Below are positions 1,997 through 61,797 of a stretch of DNA of 64,000 nucleotides, piece by piece. The position numbers and the translations under genes are program-made. The DNA is from Spongilla lacustris (lineage: Eukaryota; Porifera; Demospongiae; Spongillida; Spongillidae): NCBI GenBank assembly GCA_949361645.1, contig OX442421.1, positions 6,836,888-6,900,887 of the forward strand, read 5' to 3'. The stretch's first letter is position 1; every line of letters begins with the position of its first letter. The notes under the pieces were generated by a model that was given only the letters and a program-made list of their open reading frames with translations, searched no databases and was not told the DNA's origin.

Positions 1997-2895
1997 TTGT
2001 CTCACAACTATGACTACAATGAAGAGACACTCACAGAGCAACAAAAATCGATAAAGGAAGTAGTGAAAATGAAACTTCACAGACACAATACTGCTGCTAC
2101 CCAACTCAGAGCCATGCTGCCTTCCAATCTCCAGCTAGCAATGGACCTATGTCAAGAAAAAGGAGCATCCAGCTGGCTTACAGTGCTACCTATAGAGGAG
2201 TATGGGTTTACCCTCCACAAGACTGCCTTCCGAGATGCATTAGCTCTTAGATATGGCTGGTTACCTGCCAACACGCCCACCAGCTGTGCCTGTCTCTGTT
2301 GAGCATGCACTGTCATGTCCAAAAGGTGGTTTCCCTTCCATCAGGCACAATGAGATCAGAGACTATACTGCCTATCTCCTGTCAGAAATCTGCCACAATG
2401 TTTCAACTGAGCCTCATCTGCAACCCATCACAGGTGAGGTTCCCACCTCTGCCTCAGCCAACTTCCAGGATGGTGCTTGACTTGATGTAGCAGCAGATGG
2501 ATTCTGGGGAAGTCGTTTTGAGAGGGCATTCTTTGACGTAAAGGTTTTCAACCCCTACGCCCCCTCAAATAGACGACCTCAACCATCTGCCTGTTACCGT
2601 ACCCATGAGGCCTCAAAGAAACGAGCCTATGAGCATCGGATCCTCGAAGTTGAGCATGCCTCCTTCGCCCCACTCATCTTCTCTGCCACTGGAGGCTTAG
2701 GAAGGGAGGCCACAGTGGTTTACAGCCCAGCTCTCAGCAAAGTGGGGCCACTCTTATAGTTCAACCATGGCCTGGATTCGATGCCATCTCTCCTTCTCCC
2801 TTCTACGCTCCTCCATCATGTGCATCAGAGGAGATTGATCAACTATAGGCCATGCCTTTAACCACTCCCCTGTCGACCTGATTACAAAGGTTGCA
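1997..2895 (+). pseudogene. Decayed non-LTR retroelement ORF, C-terminal part
   Basis: Successive fragments in different frames read like the C-terminal end of a reverse-transcriptase protein that is very common in cnidarian and sponge genomes. Recognisable pieces are GASSWLTVLPIEEYGF, FRDALALRYGW, VEHALSCPKGGFPSIRHNEI, then further 3' ANGFWG-like, VFNPYAPSNR, KKRAYEHRI, EHASFAPLIFSATGG and MAWIRCHLSFSLLRSSI. A zinc-binding-like C/H cluster lies in the VEHALSCPKGG part. Several frameshifts and stops separate the pieces, and no reverse-transcriptase core (YADD) is visible upstream. It is a dead 5'-truncated insertion, as expected for non-LTR retroposition. Family assignment is from memory of similar proteins. 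Confidence 0.75.
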
Positions 2896-3617
2896 CAGGT
2901 CTCATCTATTCTTTAGTTTACTGTCTGACTGCCTGACTGCCCCCTTTAGTACACATTAGCATACATCATGTATCCTTGCAATGTAATTACTTGATCTTAT
3001 TATTATCATTATTACTTTTAATTAGCACCTCGATATGCTTTCCTCTAAGCTAATTACATATTTACAAGCATCGAAGGTGGTGCGCACCAATGAGCAGGAT
3101 CGCACAGAGAGGCAATGAAAGGTGTGGTACGTACGGATTGATATGCGATGCCATTCTGTGAGTTAAGGAATCCGAGACGCACACACGCGGGTCAGTAGAC
3201 ACGCTTAAATGAAATCTAAGAATTGATGATACCTTACAGCTCTCTCAGAGCTAATAGCCTATACCAGCATCTCAAGCAGCACGCAGTAACTTGTGCGCAG
3301 ATCTGATTTTGGTATCATAGCTAGGCTACATGTATATCGCTGTGTCTACCCTAGCCGGCTTAAAGAATACCACTGTCATGTCAGTGCCATTTATGGAATT
3401 GGCACGGTTGTTTTGCATTGGCAATAGGTTTGATATTTGGAACAACCAATAAAATTTGCGGTACCTACTCCAAAATGGCGGCTTCAAAGCTCATTAACTT
3501 TCAAGCACAAACCTTCCACATCTGGCACATACAATGCACACAAACAGGCCGTCAGTAGTTAGGTAAACTTATGCACTATCTTCAATATATCAAACGCATG
3601 TGTAAACTGTTAAAATA
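2896..3617. promoter_or_regulatory. 5' flank of RAG1-like gene
   Basis: No coding signal. Contains CCAATAAAA near 3446 and CAAAATGGCGGC near 3471, which resembles the YY1-type core promoter element found around animal transcription starts. Placed 150 bp before the candidate first exon, it is a plausible promoter. No terminal inverted repeat matching the right side of the gene was found by eye. Confidence 0.35.
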
Positions 3618-3620
3618 TTG

Positions 3621-6600
3621 ATGCACTACGCCTTGCGCAACCGAAGGCTTTTATTCAGCATCATCGGTTGTATTGTAATCTGGCTTTCGTTCTCCGATTC
3701 CGCTCTGATAAGTGCCCTTCGAAATAATACGGGAGAGAGAGCATTCACTGGTAAGTCGAAATATTCTTTTATCTTGAGGTGCCATATTTTCCATGAGTGA
3801 GGATGGTACGTTGTTCGTACCACATCAAGTCATGAATAATGCACATTCATGCCATATACAGTCTATGGAATCTGACCACACGTGCCGACGTGAGGACCTA
3901 TGTAGAGTATGTGGGTGCAGGCTACAAAAGGCTCTCAGAGCTAAGGGCAAAACAGGGAAACAAAAGCCACAATATGCGTGCCGCTCCTATTCAAAGGACT
4001 TAATGACAGCCTTCGATATTGACGTTGCAAGTGATGCTGTTGAGATCCACCCCCAGATGTTTTGCATATTGTGTCATAAGGCTATGACACGCATTGTTAG
4101 AGCAAAGGAGTGTCAAAGACCATACAAGTGCAGCGTGCAACCCTATAACTGGCACACACATACACTGGATACATGTAAGGTAAGTATTATAACTCTCTAA
4201 TATATGCACATGTGCCAAAATAACACAATATGTTTGTAGGTGTGCAAGCCTTCCTGTATGCTTAGATGGCAAAGCACTTTTAGGCCTGGACAGACAAAAG
4301 GTTACACCCCTAAAGCACTGATCACTTTGATTGAAGCCCTAGCACCCCCACCAGTTGTAACAAGGTATCCATACCCAGCCTTGGCACATCTACAAATACT
4401 ATCGACATCTGTGATGAACATGCTGATGTGTCCAATTTGTACTGCTGTACTGCAGCAACCAATCCAGCTGCCATGTCATATGTGTGTGTGTAAGCAGTGC
4501 ATTATTGACTGGATCAGAATCTCGGCACATAATCAGTGCCCCTGTTGTTATGACTTGGCCTGTCTACAGAAAGGTGCAGTCAAACTACCTCCTGACATAG
4601 TAAACACACTTCTTGGGGATGTCATGGTGTGCTGTACATTGTGTGGGCAAGGTGTCAGAGCTGGTGACTATGGTGCACATGAGTGTGGTCAGCTCAGCAA
4701 ACTGCAGCTACAAATAACTGCTCAAGTCCACTCACCAGCCAATACAATATGCATACCCACTGGAGGAACAGTATGTAATGCAAATTATACATGCATTAAT
4801 AATGATTAGGTTATTGTTTTTCAGCCTTTGACACTTATGAAAATTACACAGCCAAAACACCCCATCAGCCAAATGAGCCTACGAACACGAAAACGTCGGG
4901 CATCTGAAGTGTGTAATGCCAGAACCATGTTAAGTGCAGAAAGCTCCAGTCTCATCCTTGAGAGTAAGACGGAAAAGCAGCAACTACTTCTATCTGCAGG
5001 AATCACAAAAGAGATGAAACCAGAGGAAGGGCTTGCACTGAAGGCAGACTTAGGTCTCTCATGGAATAAGCTACGAGATCTGAGAAGGTATAGACTACAC
5101 TGTAGAAATTATTAATCATGTTTTCTTTATAATCATATGCTGTAAAAGATGGCTACAAGAAGCTGGGATGTACATTGGAAGTGAGCGGAAGCAGCGTGCA
5201 CTTGCTAAGGAGCTGATTGGTGATAACCTTGAGGTTGAGCTGACTCCATTTTCCTTTAAAACTTCTAATGGTGGGGAGGAGCTGAGAGGAGCACCACATG
5301 CATTCACTCCAAGTTTGCAGCACAAACTTGTGCAACTTCTTGAAGAAAATGAAAGGTATCAGTAAGCATAAATGATACGCATATTCATCACCTTTGTAAT
5401 AGGGAAAGCAAGCTCATTTGGCATGATGGAATGATTCCTCCCTCTGAGATTTGGGTGAAGCTAGGTGGAGACAAAGGGGGTGGTTCATTTAAAATGAACT
5501 TCCAAATAGTGAACATCTCCGCCCCCAACTCTGTCCATGCAACATGTGTGTTCTCCTGTTTTGAGGCTAGTGACTCAATCACAAACCTGCATGTAGCCCT
5601 GGACAGATTTAGAGATGAAGTTACAGAAATAAGGAACATGACTTGGAAGTAAACTAAATAGCGTTGCACTGTTGATCTCAAGGTATCACACAATTGTTTC
5701 AGGAACTATGCAATCCGACTGTTCATTTGTGGGGACTTAGACTTTCTTGACAAGATCTATGGCATATCAGGTTCCAGTGGTAAGTGTTTATTATCAACCG
5801 CCCGCTTTATATACATGTTACAATAGGGAAGTGTCCTTGCTTGTTTTGCTTGATAACAAGTAAGCAGATAAGGTCACCAGATGCTAGCAGGCAAAGATAT
5901 CCTCTGAGGTCACTTGAATCTATGGCTGGAGACTACCAAAGGTTTCTCAAATCTGGTGGCAACCATCAGCATGCTAAACACTACAACAATTGTATTCGAG
6001 AAGCCTTTTTTAACATTCCACTCACAGAGGTATCATAAATTGTACTTGCATATGCAATTGAATGCACTAAGATTTTTATTACAGGTGTGCATGCCAGGAC
6101 TCCACATCACACAAGGCATATTCCAGAAGCTTTTTGAGCTCTTTGAGGAAGCATGCCATAACCTTGACCTCCAACTTGCTCTTCACAGGCAAGGCTACAC
6201 AAACTGTGGTCCTGAATTTGAGAAGTACTGTAAGGTGCTAAAGGAGATCTCAACTGTCAGGCATGATCTGGAGCTAGCAGAGCAAGAAAGGGACACACTG
6301 GAGCAATTGATTACCTATTGTTCCCTTACGTATACAAACGCTACACGTGAGCTTAAAGGACTGACAGAGCTTTCACAGATAAGCAATGACAGAGTGCAGG
6401 GATTGGTAAGAACAAAATGAAATACAGCAGATAAATTACAAGGGCAAATTTTCTAGGCACACAGGTTGACAGAGCTGATGGATTTAGCTGATAAAGGGTT
6501 CAATATCAATGATGGTCCCTTTGTGAAACAACTCCTTGTGACCTTGGATTCAATTGGAGTTCACCGCCAAAAGTATTATGGAGGCATCTTTGTTGGCAAC

Positions 6601-7208
6601 CATATACATAAAATGCTGCAAGTAAGCATACATAATATGTCATAGATGCTGTGCTCACATAATATTTAACACAGTCACCTAACTTGGAGACTCTGTGCTC
6701 ATTGGTGACCAAAATGGCACATTCCATAGCACTCTTGCACTCTGAGGCCCAAGGAGTTTACAACAAATTCCATACCATCTTCACCTTGTTTGCAGAATGC
6801 CATTTCCAGTATAACAGTGGTGCACTATCTGAAAGACAAATAGATCAGCTAGGTAAGTTTAAAATAATGAACTCCAATGCTTACTTTGGTCCCTATCAAA
6901 TAGAGTTAGCAATCAAAAGGTTTTTCGAATTCTTCGACAAGGAGTTTCCTGACTCTCATAGGAGTGTGAAAATGCACATTCTCGAGCACCATATGGTTGA
7001 TTGGATTCGCTACCACCATGCTGGTTGTGGATTGATGGGTGAACAGGGAGCAGAGTCAATTCACTCCAAGTTTAACAACCTAAAAGCTACATTTAAATCT
7101 GTACATGATCCAGTTGAAAGGCTAATGTGTATAATGAAGGAACATTACCTTTCTGTATCACCAAAAATCCATGGTGCCACACCACCAAAGAAGAAAAGAA
7201 AGAACTAA
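3621..7208 (+). CDS. RAG1-like recombinase/transposase, apparently intact, multi-exon
   Basis: Exons in frame: 3793-4179 (an upstream exon 3621-3750 may splice to 3779 or 3830), 4240-4770, 4825-5087, 5149-5355, 5403-5648, 5703-5779, 5827-6029, 6085-6405, 6457-6621, 6675-6852, 6904-7208; about 960 aa from the ATG at 3793 (vertebrate RAG1 is about 1040). Domains: a zinc segment with LCRVCG, AFDIDVASDAVEIHP, MFCILCHKAM and WHTHTLDTC, matching the RAG1 N-terminal region; a RING (CPIC, CHMCVCKQC, CPCC, residues about 190-250) followed by a C2H2-like finger ending DYGAHEC; then a catalytic-type core with D486 in KLGGDKGGGSFKMNFQ, D556/D558 in FICGDLDFLDKIYG followed by the CPCLFC zinc knuckle, and E906/E910 in GLMGEQGAESIH. 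The C-terminus PPKKKRKN looks like a nuclear localisation signal. All three RNase H-fold carboxylate regions align with RAG1 D600, D708 and E962 in order and context. It could be a domesticated gene or the transposase of a RAG/Transib- or Chapaev-type element. No RAG2-like gene is seen. Confidence 0.88.
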
Positions 7209-8235
7209 GCAGAATAGAATACAAAAGAATACTTTAAAACTACTAGTATTGTTTATCTATAAAATGGCGTCAACCGCGTTAAAAGGGGAATATTCAAAAG
7301 GGCAAATGCTTGAACTAGAAAATATGGCACCCGCTAAATTAACCAAAAAACGTTACACAAACTTACGTCTGTTGTTGGGTTAAAATTTCAGGTGACTTTA
7401 TCAGGGAGGAATCGACAAAAAACGGACACTTCTCGTCCCTGGTTACAAAACACGCACCGACAACTCGCGCTTGGATATAACGTTCTGTACGACGTCATAG
7501 CACATGCTTTATATCGTTGTAATCACCATTTCTTCTATATTTCATGGTCAAATAATCGAGTCTCATCGTCTACAGAAGCTGCTCCAAATGGCCCTCTTTG
7601 TGGACATGTTTCCGTTGCTATGGGCTTAATGAGCTCCGTTGCTAGGTACTTATTATTCATACGGCGGAGGGCCTATTGTCCAATTTTGTACGTATTGTAA
7701 CAACCGTGGGAAGCACATATGTAAAGGGTCAGTGAGCATTCAAGCCTCCATCCAGTAATTGCGCATACTAGTAATGTTATCTGCTTAGAAAACTTCTAAG
7801 GGTGTGCTTTAATTTAAACTGTATTAAACGTTGTGAGCTTGTAGCTGTGTGTTATTCCTTCAGTTAACACCGGTTCCATGCCTAAATAGAATGTCAAACC
7901 TAGTTTTTAGAAAATTAGTCGGAAAAGGTGGTTTTAAGTTGAAAAAGACATATTCTGACAGCCCAACTCTTTCTACGACGATTGGTGCTATTCCTAGCTT
8001 CGTATCATTCACGGAGACGTAGGCCTAGTTAGCTTCATTTAAACAGACGCGATCGCCCGTTTTTCGATGCTCGAAAGCTACCGAGTACACTTTTTTCCGG
8101 AGTGGTTTCAAACACATTTGATGGTGTCCGTAAACGTGTTTAGGTACCCGATAACATATAGCTAAGCACAAGTGACACGTCACAACTTACCACACTCTCG
8201 CCTGGTACCCAGACCCAAACGTTGTATTTCTATAT
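7209..8235. other. 3' flank of RAG1-like gene, no gene seen
   Basis: Short open frames (for example around 7392-7700) have no recognisable domain or splice structure. CAAATGGCCC and other promoter-like motifs occur, but nothing can be assigned. Confidence 0.4.
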
Positions 8236-8656
8236 AATGTCACCGGGGGTACAAATATTATTGGACACCCGGGTGGACAGCAAAAAAGGTTTTTGCCGTT
8301 CGATCACGGAAAGGACCTGGCTGCATTTAACGGTACTGGCTTACAGAACAAGTCTTTTCAGGATTTGGCCGAGATAAGTAAGGCTTCGGTACTCGGTAAA
8401 ATGACCCGTGCTAGCGGACCTATCCATTACGCTCCGACCGCTCCGCACGGAGCGTAATGGATAGGTCCGCTAGCACGGGTCATTTTACGAGTACCGAAAG
8501 GATTTAAGCCTTACTTATCTCGGCCCAATCCTGAAAAGACTTGTACTCGGTACCGTTAAATACCACTTACTAGGTCCCTTCCGTGAGTGACCGAACGGCA
8601 ATAACTTTTTTTGCTGTCCACCACCCGGGTGTACAATTGTACCCCCGGATGGACAT
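8236..8656. repeat. Large near-perfect palindrome (foldback element)
   Basis: Two arms of about 200 bp run outward from an 11-bp loop at 8437-8447. The innermost arms CATTACGCTCCG/CGGAGCGTAATG and the outermost CCGGGGGTACAA/TTGTACCCCCGG pair with few mismatches and small indels along the whole length. No coding capacity. Typical of a foldback/MITE insertion. Confidence 0.85.
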
Positions 8657-11002: not shown

Positions 11003-13193
11003 TTATTTATTCTTTACTCTCTTGGCTGGAGGGGGTATGGCAGCTACCAATTGTGGCTCAATACTTAGTAAGTGTTCTTGTACAATGCGCATCAGGTTCT
11101 GCATGTGGTTGTGGATTGGAGCAAATGTCAAGCCAAGAATTTTGCATGAATTGACTTGGCCCCTGAAAAGGGGGCTGTTTCTCCTTTGGGGTTATCGCCA
11201 ACAATTTGGCTGGATATGTGGTGCATCCTTTCCTCACCAGCTAGACAGATTCCTGATGATTTGAGCCACCTGAAACATTAGTGAGTTAGAATTGAGCTTT
11301 TGCTGTATGTTGTGACACACCGCCTTAGAAGCCTCAGTGTATTCCAAGGTATGGCAAGCCCAGCCTTAATCGCCGGCAATACATGTACCTGAACTTCAGT
11401 CCATGATGAGTAGGCAGCTGTAGTTTAGCTCTGGTGACATGCACAAATGTCATTGGCAGAAGTGAGTGTATATATTATGTAACCTCTGTACAAGTCATTG
11501 ACATTCACTTAACTGCTTCCCCTGTAGCAAGTTGTATGATGGCTTTGTCAGGACTAGCTGGTAGAGATTACCCTCTTCAGCAAACCCGCTGCTTGCTTCT
11601 CCTCCTCAGGTGTAAGTGTTGGTGCACACTCATGCTCTTCATAGTCACCATCCTTAATATCCCTGCTGCAGTCTGTATACAGTGCTCCAGAACATTTGAC
11701 AGCAGCAGCATTATCACACTTGATGATAGTCTGACTAGGGGATCATCCTGGTGACCGTCCTCTGAGCAGCAGGGGACCATCCTCTGAGCAGCAGGGGACC
11801 ATCCTCTGAGCAGCAGGGGACCATCCTCTGAGCAGCAGGGGACCATCCTCTGAGCAGCAGGGGACCATCCTCTGAGCAGCAGGGGATCATCCTCGGAGCA
11901 GCAGGGGATCATCCTCTGAGCAGCAGGGGAACATCCTCTGATCAGCAGGGGACCGTCCTCTGAGCAGCATGGGACTGTCCTCTGAGCGGCAGGGGATCAT
12001 CCTCTGAGCAGCAGGAGATCATCCTCGGAGCAGCAGGGGATCATCCTCTGAGCAGCAGGGGACCATCCTCTGAGTAGCAGGGGATCATCCTCGGAGCAGC
12101 AGGGGATCATCCTCTGAGCAGCAGGGGACCATCCTCTGATCAGCAGGGGACCGTCCTCTGAGCAGCATGGGACTGTCCTCTGAGCGGCAGGGGATCATCC
12201 TCTGAGCAGCAGGAGATCATCCTCGGAGCAGCAGGGGATCATCCTCTGAGCAGCAGGGGACCATCCTCTGATCAGCAGGGGACCATCCTCTGATCAGCAG
12301 GGGACCGTCCTCTGAGCAGCATGGGACTGTCCTCTGAGCAGCAGGGGATCATCCTCTGAGCAACAGGGGATCATCCTCTGGGCAGCATGGGACCATCCTC
12401 TGAGCAGCAGGGGACCGTCCTCTGAGCAGCAGGGGGCCATCCTCTGAGCAGCATGGGACCATCCTCTGATCAGCAGGGGACCGTCCTCTGAGCAGCATGG
12501 GACTGTCCTCTGAGCAGCAGGGGATCATCCTCTGAGCAGCAGGAGATCATCCTCTGAGTAGCAGTGGATCATCCTCTGATCAGCAGGGAACCATCCTCTG
12601 AGCAGCAGGGGATCATCCTCTGGGCAGCATGGGACCATCCTCTGGGCAGCATGGGACCATTACTGAGCAACATGGGACCATCTCTGAGCAGCAGAGGACT
12701 ATCCGTCCTCTGAGCAGCATGGATGGTTCACAGCATCATATGCTGCTATCCACTCCCGGAGGCATTTGGAGCACACCAGTGCACCACACAGCAGCTCCAG
12801 TGGCTGTGAGAGGGTGTTGGAGCACAGTGCACACTTCAGCTCCTTTAGCATTGATAGGTTGTTAGCTCTTGCCAAAGGTGGGCTAGGCTCACTATGGAGA
12901 ACTAGAGGAGGGGCAATCTTCTCAAGATGACCTCTTATGATGTCATATGTTTACTTGTTTTGCCACTCAAATAGCATCACTACACATTTGTGATGCACTC
13001 ACTTTGTGATGGCACAGATGGTTCTCTACATACCCAGCTTACATTGCATGCAGAACATCTCAGGGTTACATCATCCCCAGATGTGTCAAATGTCAAAAGC
13101 TATTTTCAGCTCAGCTGAGAATGCTATGCACTCAGAGCTGGTTCTTTTCTTTGCCCTGTACTTCGTTAGCCTCTGCCCACACACTCTGCAATG
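11003..13193 (-). pseudogene. Degenerate second copy of the RAG1-like gene
   Basis: Read on the minus strand from 13,193 downward: CRVCGQRLTKYRAKKR and FSAELKIAFDI, then in shifted frames DTSGDDV and NPEMFCMQCKLGM, matching the N-terminal zinc segment of the intact gene (LCRVCG, AFDIDVASDAV, PQMFCILCHKAM). At 12,848-12,690 a RING follows: LKCALCSNTLSQPLELLC, VCSKCLREWIAAYDAVNH and PCC. At 11,735-11,570 the finger IKCDNAAAVKCSG ends DGDYEEHEC. At 11,140-11,003 the C-terminus NLMRIVQEHLLSIEP ends PPPAKRVKNK and stop, like the intact PPKKKRKN. The region that should hold the catalytic core, between 11,570 and 11,300, is too short, so the core is deleted. Several frameshifts and stops confirm decay. 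Confidence 0.82.
11757..12720. repeat. 22-bp minisatellite inside the RAG1-like pseudogene
   Basis: About 43 copies of GCAGCAGGGGACCATCCTCTGA with point variants. On the minus strand the unit TGCTGCTCAGAGGAYGGTCC is identical to the codons just after the RING (PCCSEDG), so the array grew from coding sequence. Its open minus-strand frames are not a protein gene. Confidence 0.92.
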
Positions 13194-13792
13194 TATGGAA
13201 ATTGTAATCCATACCTATAATGTATAGGGCAAAACCACAACGTACGTCGATTATTCATGCAATACGCTCAGCTTGTTCGTGGTGACAGAAAATGCGTTGC
13301 CACTTCAGGCTAGTAAATTTTGGTAGCCACATGCCTCCTGAGCATCGCTGTAGTACTTATACCTTCCAGTTCAGTCACCAAAGGCTACATCGTCGCATTT
13401 AGTAACGCCCTCCTTCTAAATACGTATCGCGTGACCTTGCTAAACGGTATGCGCATGCTATCTATGTGGAATTTCAATTGTGCGCATTGACTGGACATGA
13501 CAGGAAAAGGAATGCAGTGTTTGAGTTCGTTTTCACTTTTTGATTTGCTAGTTCTGGTGAGTTATGGTTTGCTTTTAAACATCAGATGTCTATAATGAGC
13601 CATCAGTTAAGAAATATATGGTAATACCGTAAATGATCTAATTATTGACTTAGTTTCCAGCCGCATACAACCGTGGCTTAGTAACCGCGGGACATCCATT
13701 CTAAAATGGGGCGCCCACGTCCCGCCCACAACAAACAGCAACAGCGGAACAGGGGGCGGGTCCGTGAATTAAATTACGGGTTCCGTGCAACT

Positions 13793-42971: not shown

Positions 42972-55764
<12,793 letters not shown>

Positions 55765-60458: not shown

Positions 60459-61564
60459 TCACACTGGTGGTTGGTGTGGGTGTGGTCTGTTGTGTACCGT
60501 TTGCAGCTTCCTTCTATACTTCTCCAACTCCACACCTTCCCAGTGCTTGGACTGGAGGGGGTCAAAGAAGGTCCTCTTAATGTGGTCCCTCACCTCAGCT
60601 TCCTTCTCAGTAAGAGGAAGGCATGCTGCCTCTATGTTGCTGTCTACCATGGCCTTTGTGGTCATGCCAACTAGTGTGGTAGCAACCTGATGAGAAGGAG
60701 AATTTATTATCTTTCCTGGGGTTCCATGTAGGACTACCCCTGCATACATACCTCTTTAAAGCTGGTGCTGTAGTTGATGGCTAGTCGCGTGATGTCTACA
60801 CCGTGTTCTGAACAGTATCTTGACGCGTCCACTGCAGCCTTCTTTAACTCAGGCGATGCTGGGTGCCATGGCGGTATGCCCTTGCCGCCTTCCGTAAGGA
60901 GACCCATGCCTACAGGACTGGCGTTGATAAGCGGGATGCCTTTGGCCTTGTAGTAGCTGAATTCGTCGGTTAGGGACGAGTCGTTTAGAGTGAGTCTGCA
61001 ATAGGAGAGGACGCTGTCTATCTTCACGGGGCTCTTCTCGACGATGGCTCTCAGTGTGGAGAGCGGGTAGCCAGTGATGCCAATGTACCTGCACAGCCCG
61101 CGCTCCTTCAGTATCTGTAGCGCGGGAAGTGTGCTTTGTACGACAACGTCTACGGACGGTGCAAACTCCACGTCGTGGGCCTGAAGGAGGTCGACGTAGT
61201 CCAACTGCAGCCTCTGTAGGCTCTCCTGAGCGCTCGCTGTTACCTTTTCAGCAGAGAAGTCGAACATTTTGGCTGCGTCTTTCTCGTATCGTGCTACCTT
61301 TGTGGCGATAAAGTACCTCTCTCGCGGTATCCCTTTCAATGCATTGCCGATAAAACGCTCGGAAGAACCCTGTCCGTACCAGTATGCCGTGTCGATATAG
61401 TTAATGCCGCGGTCGATGGCATATTTAAATGCGCGAGTAGCCTCCTCTTCATTAATCTGGCCGTATAACTTTCCGTAAACTGTGCCTCCCAGTCCTAATA
61501 CCGAGGCTGTAAGATTGGTGTTTCCCAGTCGCCTGTACAGCATTGCTGGTCCACCACCAGCCAT
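60459..61564 (-). CDS. Aldo-keto reductase, L-galactose/D-threo-aldose dehydrogenase-like
   Basis: Two exons, 61564-60752 and 60686-60459; 346 aa. The N-terminus MLYRRLGNTNLTASVLGLGG is the standard AKR start. Tetrad: D58 and Y63 in NYIDTAYWYG, K89 in FIATKVARYEK and H130 in LLQAHDVEF. YVDLLQAHDVEF and the LGNTNLTASVLGLGGTVYG start fit the L-galactose dehydrogenase-like group, which oxidises or reduces aldoses with NAD(P). The last exon encodes DHIKRTFFDPLQSKHWEGVE and then a tail (LQTVHNRPHPHQPPV) unlike the tail in the adjacent duplicate. Convergent with CEP57, 138 bp between stops. Confidence 0.92.
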
Positions 61565-61797
61565 TGCTTGGGTTTATTGTACCACGCCTCCAAATAAATT
61601 AAGGGCTAATATTTACATTGTATAACGTCATCTACCCCCTTTTCCACTACACTGCACTGTTGACTGTACTAAAACAGCGAATCAATGTCCCTAAAAAGGA
61701 GCTGTATTGTAAAGAGATGCACATACAAACAATACATTTATTTAAAAAAACGATTGCAGTATCTGCTAGCTGCAGAAAATCAACAATGAGTCAAATA

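Follow-up and report, generated by a model that had tools for sequence, protein, structure and literature searches.

A Chapaev-type transposon of the sponge Spongilla lacustris encodes a transposase with the part order of RAG1

We identify, with high confidence, an autonomous-looking cut-and-paste transposon of the Chapaev type (CMCT clade) in the sponge Spongilla lacustris, whose transposase carries its parts in the order known from RAG1, the antibody-gene-cutting enzyme. The element occupies positions 3403–7708 of the window, i.e., the 64,000-nucleotide stretch of DNA analysed (GCA_949361645.1, contig OX442421.1, positions 6,836,888 to 6,900,887), and is apparently intact and recently mobile. 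A preliminary description had reported a full-length RAG1-like gene at 3621–7208; that unit is too small, and the gene, far from standing outside known families, encodes the transposase of a multicopy Chapaev transposon. This transposase is a relative of RAG1, and its gene is not a RAG1 gene.

Results

Gene structure

The gene comprises ten exons on the plus strand, separated by nine GT-AG introns of 47–61 bp, and has 977 codons plus a stop whose last base is 7208 (Table 1). The exons join in frame, as previously claimed, in what is a computational gene model predicted from the DNA. Relatives lend no support to the segment 3621–3792 and hence to the start first proposed at 3621; since relatives (e.g., P0005) begin near residue 25 of the gene model, translation probably starts at 3793 or 3865. 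Outside the exons, the largest open frame in 3403–7708 spans 120 aa (7338–7700) and had no Pfam match. Two 18-base stretches are missing from the window copy (at 4727 and 4962) and present in genomic copies L002–L005; the frame is kept.

Table 1. Positions of the transposon, its gene and a related copy in the window.
Feature	Positions	Strand	Description
Chapaev-type DNA transposon	3403..7708	+	4306 bp; bounds from three ~99% full copies and deleted copies with both ends
5' terminal inverted repeat	3403..3412	+	CACGGTTGTT; ends common to genomic copies
3' terminal inverted repeat	7699..7708	+	AACAACCGTG; ends common to genomic copies
Exon 1	3793..4179	+	Chapa / RAG1 N-terminal zinc region; PF12560 match
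Exon 2	4240..4770	+	RING (residues ~191-235), then C2H2-like finger
Exon 3	4825..5087	+	TGGTP motif; putative start of DNA-binding / dimerisation part
Exon 4	5149..5355	+	Inside DUF1280 match 368-531
Exon 5	5403..5648	+	GGDKGGG; candidate catalytic D486 (5470-5472)
Exon 6	5703..5779	+	GDLDFL; candidate catalytic D556 (5734-5736)
Exon 7	5827..6029	+	C(2)C pair: C575 (5838-5840), C578 (5847-5849)
Exon 8	6085..6405	+	LH motif: L644-H645 (6100-6105)
Exon 9	6457..6621	+	
Exon 10	6675..7208	+	H(4)H pair: H901 (6975-6977), H906 (6990-6992); stop
GEQGAES in exon 10		+	Candidate catalytic E923 (7041-7043) or E927 (7053-7055)
Decayed related but different Chapaev copy	11012..13202	-	tblastn of family against window; separate from main element

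Protein domains and relatives

The window protein matched Pfam RAG1_imp_bd (PF12560) at residues 13–134 (27.1 bits against a cut-off of 23.3) and DUF1280 (PF06918) at residues 368–531 (E 7e-17; 62.2 bits against a cut-off of 25); Pfam RING matches at residues 192–232 were all under their cut-offs. A protein search returned 20 relatives among the 7989 best candidates scored, three of which carry the name Ephydatia muelleri, and a profile added four more. We take EukProt entries with Em numbers to be E. muelleri and those with scpid numbers to be Sycon. One relative, P0020, is fused to retroelement domains. A profile built from 11 relatives matched mouse RAG1 residues 104–413 (zinc region, RING, C2H2) with an E-value of 2.8e-25; by Pfam and this profile, the sponge transposase contains a RAG1-type N-terminal zinc region and RING. 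Ten of the 11 profile members matched DUF1280 and four matched RAG1_imp_bd (E ≤ 0.1), and the parts follow the same order in relatives such as P0006, P0015, P0017 and P0021.

Residues D81, P87, C91, C94, W120, H123 and C128 of exon 1 are invariant across 12 sequences, with C37 and H86 nearly so. The LH motif is nearly invariant in alignment A2, and the C pair and H pair are invariant across the seven sequences of the core-weighted alignment A4. All acidic motifs listed in the preliminary description are present, i.e., GGDKGGG (D486), GDLDFL (D556) followed by C575-x2-C578, and GEQGAES (E923, E927). Its order of zinc segment, RING plus C2H2-like finger, and acidic motifs is borne out by Pfam, the profile and the motif positions.

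Element ends and target duplications

The true ends, 3403 and 7708, were established from genome copies. The inverted ends CACGGTTGTT...AACAACCGTG (CAC..GTG) occur in the window, in three full copies and in L008, L011 and L012, as compared without an end filter. We examined 29 loci, a subset of the genome copies in which L005/L072 and L009/L068 are each one copy. Paired ends were absent at eight loci, and 16 of the 21 copies with both ends carried an exact 4-bp target duplication; the duplication is missing in the window copy (TTGG / GGAA), L053, L058, L060 and L064. End conservation among the 29 loci is partly by construction, because the filter took only CAC starts and GTG ends.

In a scan of the flanks for inverted repeats with a duplication, the actual ends escaped notice, since the window copy lacks a matching duplication and the repeat spans 10 bp. 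One candidate pair of ends, 2001 / 7837 with a 5-bp duplication (15/20 matched; best of 30 shuffles, 14), was rejected as chance, given its position within an unrelated open frame and the several lengths tried. The statement that both halves of RAG1 stand in one gene with no RAG2-like neighbour holds for the element (3403–7708), inside which no RAG2-like gene was found.

Copies in the genome

Searching the genome (248.6 Mb in 51 contigs) with window positions 2860–8200 gave at least 86 matches, the window itself included; copy counts are lower bounds because 40 of 642 candidates were scored. Three loci were 99% identical over query positions 542/544–4850, another was 95% identical, and one split copy was 92–96% identical. 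Many shorter matches ranged from 70 to 100%, two of which (C10) were flanking sequence beyond the element. Relative to the window copy, the three near-identical copies carry 15, 13 and 18 substitutions; their ~99% identity extends across all 4.3 kb, including introns and untranslated parts. L002 and L005 have a broken reading frame, whereas it is uninterrupted in L003, L004 and the window copy. L002, L003 and L004 retain all nine splice junctions, and the 95% copy L005, relative to which the window copy gave dN 0.021, dS 0.061 and dN/dS 0.34, retains eight of the nine.

There were 17 internally deleted copies with both ends (the group L008, L011, L012, L053–L064, L069, L071). The deleted copies retain approximately query positions 544–1847 and 4129–4849, which cover the first exons and the final portion of exon 10. 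A repressor would require an open Chapa-RING frame; this was sought among them, and 0/17 had both N-terminal exons open over 85%. These copies look like a non-autonomous, non-coding family.

Profile matches in the genome at E ≤ 0.001 numbered 116 for DUF1280 and 22 for RAG1_imp_bd, in a scan insensitive enough to leave the window's own exon 1 unlisted. A same-strand DUF1280 match lay within 2 kb of 15 of the 22 RAG1_imp_bd matches, so both halves are also found together elsewhere in the genome; the majority of the 116 DUF1280 matches had no listed RAG1_imp_bd neighbour. A genome scan with PF12940 was silent, but its controls were equally silent, and the scan is given no weight here.

Host and surroundings

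The host looks to be an early-branching animal, as had been supposed: the best named relatives of a neighbouring aldo/keto reductase gene (60737–61573) are sponges, i.e., Ephydatia muelleri (82%) and Geodia barretti (63%), among the 120 of 1278 matches listed, which makes a demosponge allied to Ephydatia the most likely host. In the decayed Chapaev copy on the minus strand, the RING-coding part has expanded to a 22-bp tandem array of ~43 copies (11753–12704) and the catalytic core is deleted at ~11164/11137. Elsewhere, the window holds a nested near-perfect palindrome (8272–8622), likely a small inverted-repeat element, and a 25-bp satellite array of ~103 copies (50730–53271) among many minisatellites. 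The remnant of another coding repeat (1952–2759) had no Pfam match in the two frames tested; by eye, it is presumably retroelement-like.

Discussion

Our assignment to Chapaev follows published hallmarks (ends, duplications, motifs, DUF1280). In the available text of PMC4079192, these are CAC..GTG ends, 3–4 bp duplications and the motifs C(2)C, LH and H(4)H; the sponge element has CAC..GTG ends, 4-bp duplications (in 16/21 copies, the window copy not among them), C575-C578, L644-H645 and H901-H906. DUF1280, matched here at E 7e-17, is named as Chapaev transposases and placed in one clade with RAG1 in excerpts of PMC3985635, and those of PMC12730594 describe C(2)C and H(3-4)H motifs as common to RAG1, Transib and Chapaev in the CMCT clade.

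A true RAG1L / ProtoRAG transposase that had lost RAG2L would share the complete RAG1 part order, the N-terminal match (E 2.8e-25) and the core fold, but the core sequence and the duplications make this very unlikely. The RAG1-type catalytic core fold, shared with RAG1 and BbRAGL, comes from a structure predicted for an Ephydatia homologue (41% identical to the window protein over 84% of the query); the RNase H fold set as a check by the preliminary description is thus predicted for this homologue rather than for the window protein itself. Structural alignment gave core identities of 13–16% to RAG1 and BbRAGL, against >30% between TransibSU and RAG1 (PMC4411706, in part). PF12940 (RAG1 core) had zero Pfam matches in the window protein at E ≤ 10, and DUF1280 matched instead. 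The core-weighted profile A4 (seven relatives), compared with solved structures, reached RAG1 only via the RING region (best E 0.008), and Transib was absent from its listed matches. With the profile of 11 relatives, a second stretch set the H pair and E region against RAG1 874–1005 at 2.4–2.5 bits, not significant alone; in it, the RAG1 E962(Q) position faces the Q of EQG in the first alignment and E962 faces the last E in the second. Of the contexts likened to RAG1 D600, D708 and E962, the three motifs are there, but the two alignments disagree on the counterpart of E962. The significant profile match to RAG1, Transib or CMC over both halves that the preliminary description set as a check was obtained for the N-terminal half, but by sequence the core did not match RAG1 significantly. 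The 4-bp duplications also differ from the 5 bp of Transib and RAG (PMC8355894, in part).

A domesticated host gene, i.e., a sponge counterpart of RAG1, would suit the intact ten-exon frame, the dN/dS of 0.34 relative to the 95% copy and the unmatched flanks of the window copy. The chances of this are slimmer still: the inverted ends are intact and common to deleted non-coding derivatives, three loci are ~99% identical even in introns and untranslated parts, and selection on the transposase between bursts could explain the dN/dS. The gene model is predicted computationally, which might suggest unrelated exons stitched together by chance or annotation artefact, but the order shared with P0006, P0015, P0017 and P0021 and the nine junctions all kept in three further copies render the probability of this negligible. 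We retain the reading of a Chapaev transposon.

Described Chapaev elements (Chapa and RING subgroups; DUF1280) share with this one the CAC..GTG ends, 4-bp duplication, C(2)C / LH / H(4)H motifs, DUF1280, Chapa and RING; the present element differs in its sponge host, nine small introns and nearly identical copies, some with the whole gene. RAG1 and RAG1L (ProtoRAG) have in common with it the part order, N-terminal similarity and predicted core fold (on the homologue), whereas its core has no significant sequence match to theirs, no RAG2L was found in the element and the duplications are 4 bp rather than 5 bp. According to excerpts of PMC7204232, molluscs have RAG1L that includes the zinc region and RING, a cnidarian has a RAG1L-RAG2L pair, and Transib (HzTransib) lacks any equivalent of the RAG1 N-terminal region; neither this lack nor the 5-bp duplication of Transib is seen in the sponge element. 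The Aplysia N-RAG-TP has RAG1 N-terminal-like sequence (PMC8355894, in part) and, likewise, the sponge deleted copies keep N-terminal exon sequence and lose the catalytic part; unlike N-RAG-TP, the full sponge element also has a core, and the deleted copies are not open.

The one gene recognised in the element encodes a transposase with a Chapa zinc region, a RING plus C2H2-like finger, a putative DNA-binding/dimerisation part and a DDE core of predicted RNase H fold with a C(2)C/H(4)H zinc insert. For the chemistry and activity of transposition, we infer the following course. The spliced protein would bind the CACGGTTGTT ends, and its three acids, with two metal ions, would excise the element and join it to the target with a 4-bp stagger; gap repair would then produce the 4-bp duplications seen. 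By analogy with RAG and Transib, the flank likely forms a hairpin during cutting, and the RING is likely to act as a ubiquitin ligase, as in RAG1.

Chapaevs with Chapa, RING and core were already described by Kapitonov and Koonin (2015), who inferred that an ancient common ancestor already combined all three (PMC4411706, in part). The kind of system is known; new here are the sponge host, copies of near identity, precisely mapped ends and the family of deleted copies. Among the papers listed in a literature search that left out most subscription papers and Repbase, none dealt with a sponge Chapaev carrying a RING, and available portions of PMC4298943 and PMC5745447 mention Chapaev by name only. 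We tentatively propose, as a scenario that may well prove wrong, that RAG1 inherited its halves jointly from a Chapaev-like transposase complete in the earliest animals, and not through fusion of Transib with N-RAG-TP; sponge elements would be its little-changed descendants and N-RAG-TP-type elements internal-deletion derivatives, as the deleted copies here suggest. The deleted-copy family might serve as a model of how N-RAG-TP-like elements arose.

Sponge transposons are seen here to carry the RAG1 layout in full. They exist in several near-identical copies, and in three of these the gene is uninterrupted. This fits the 2015 inference that the N-terminal half and the core had already been joined when RAG1 arose. 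The element is a candidate for studying how cutting proceeds, whether hairpins form and what the RING does, all in the absence of RAG2.
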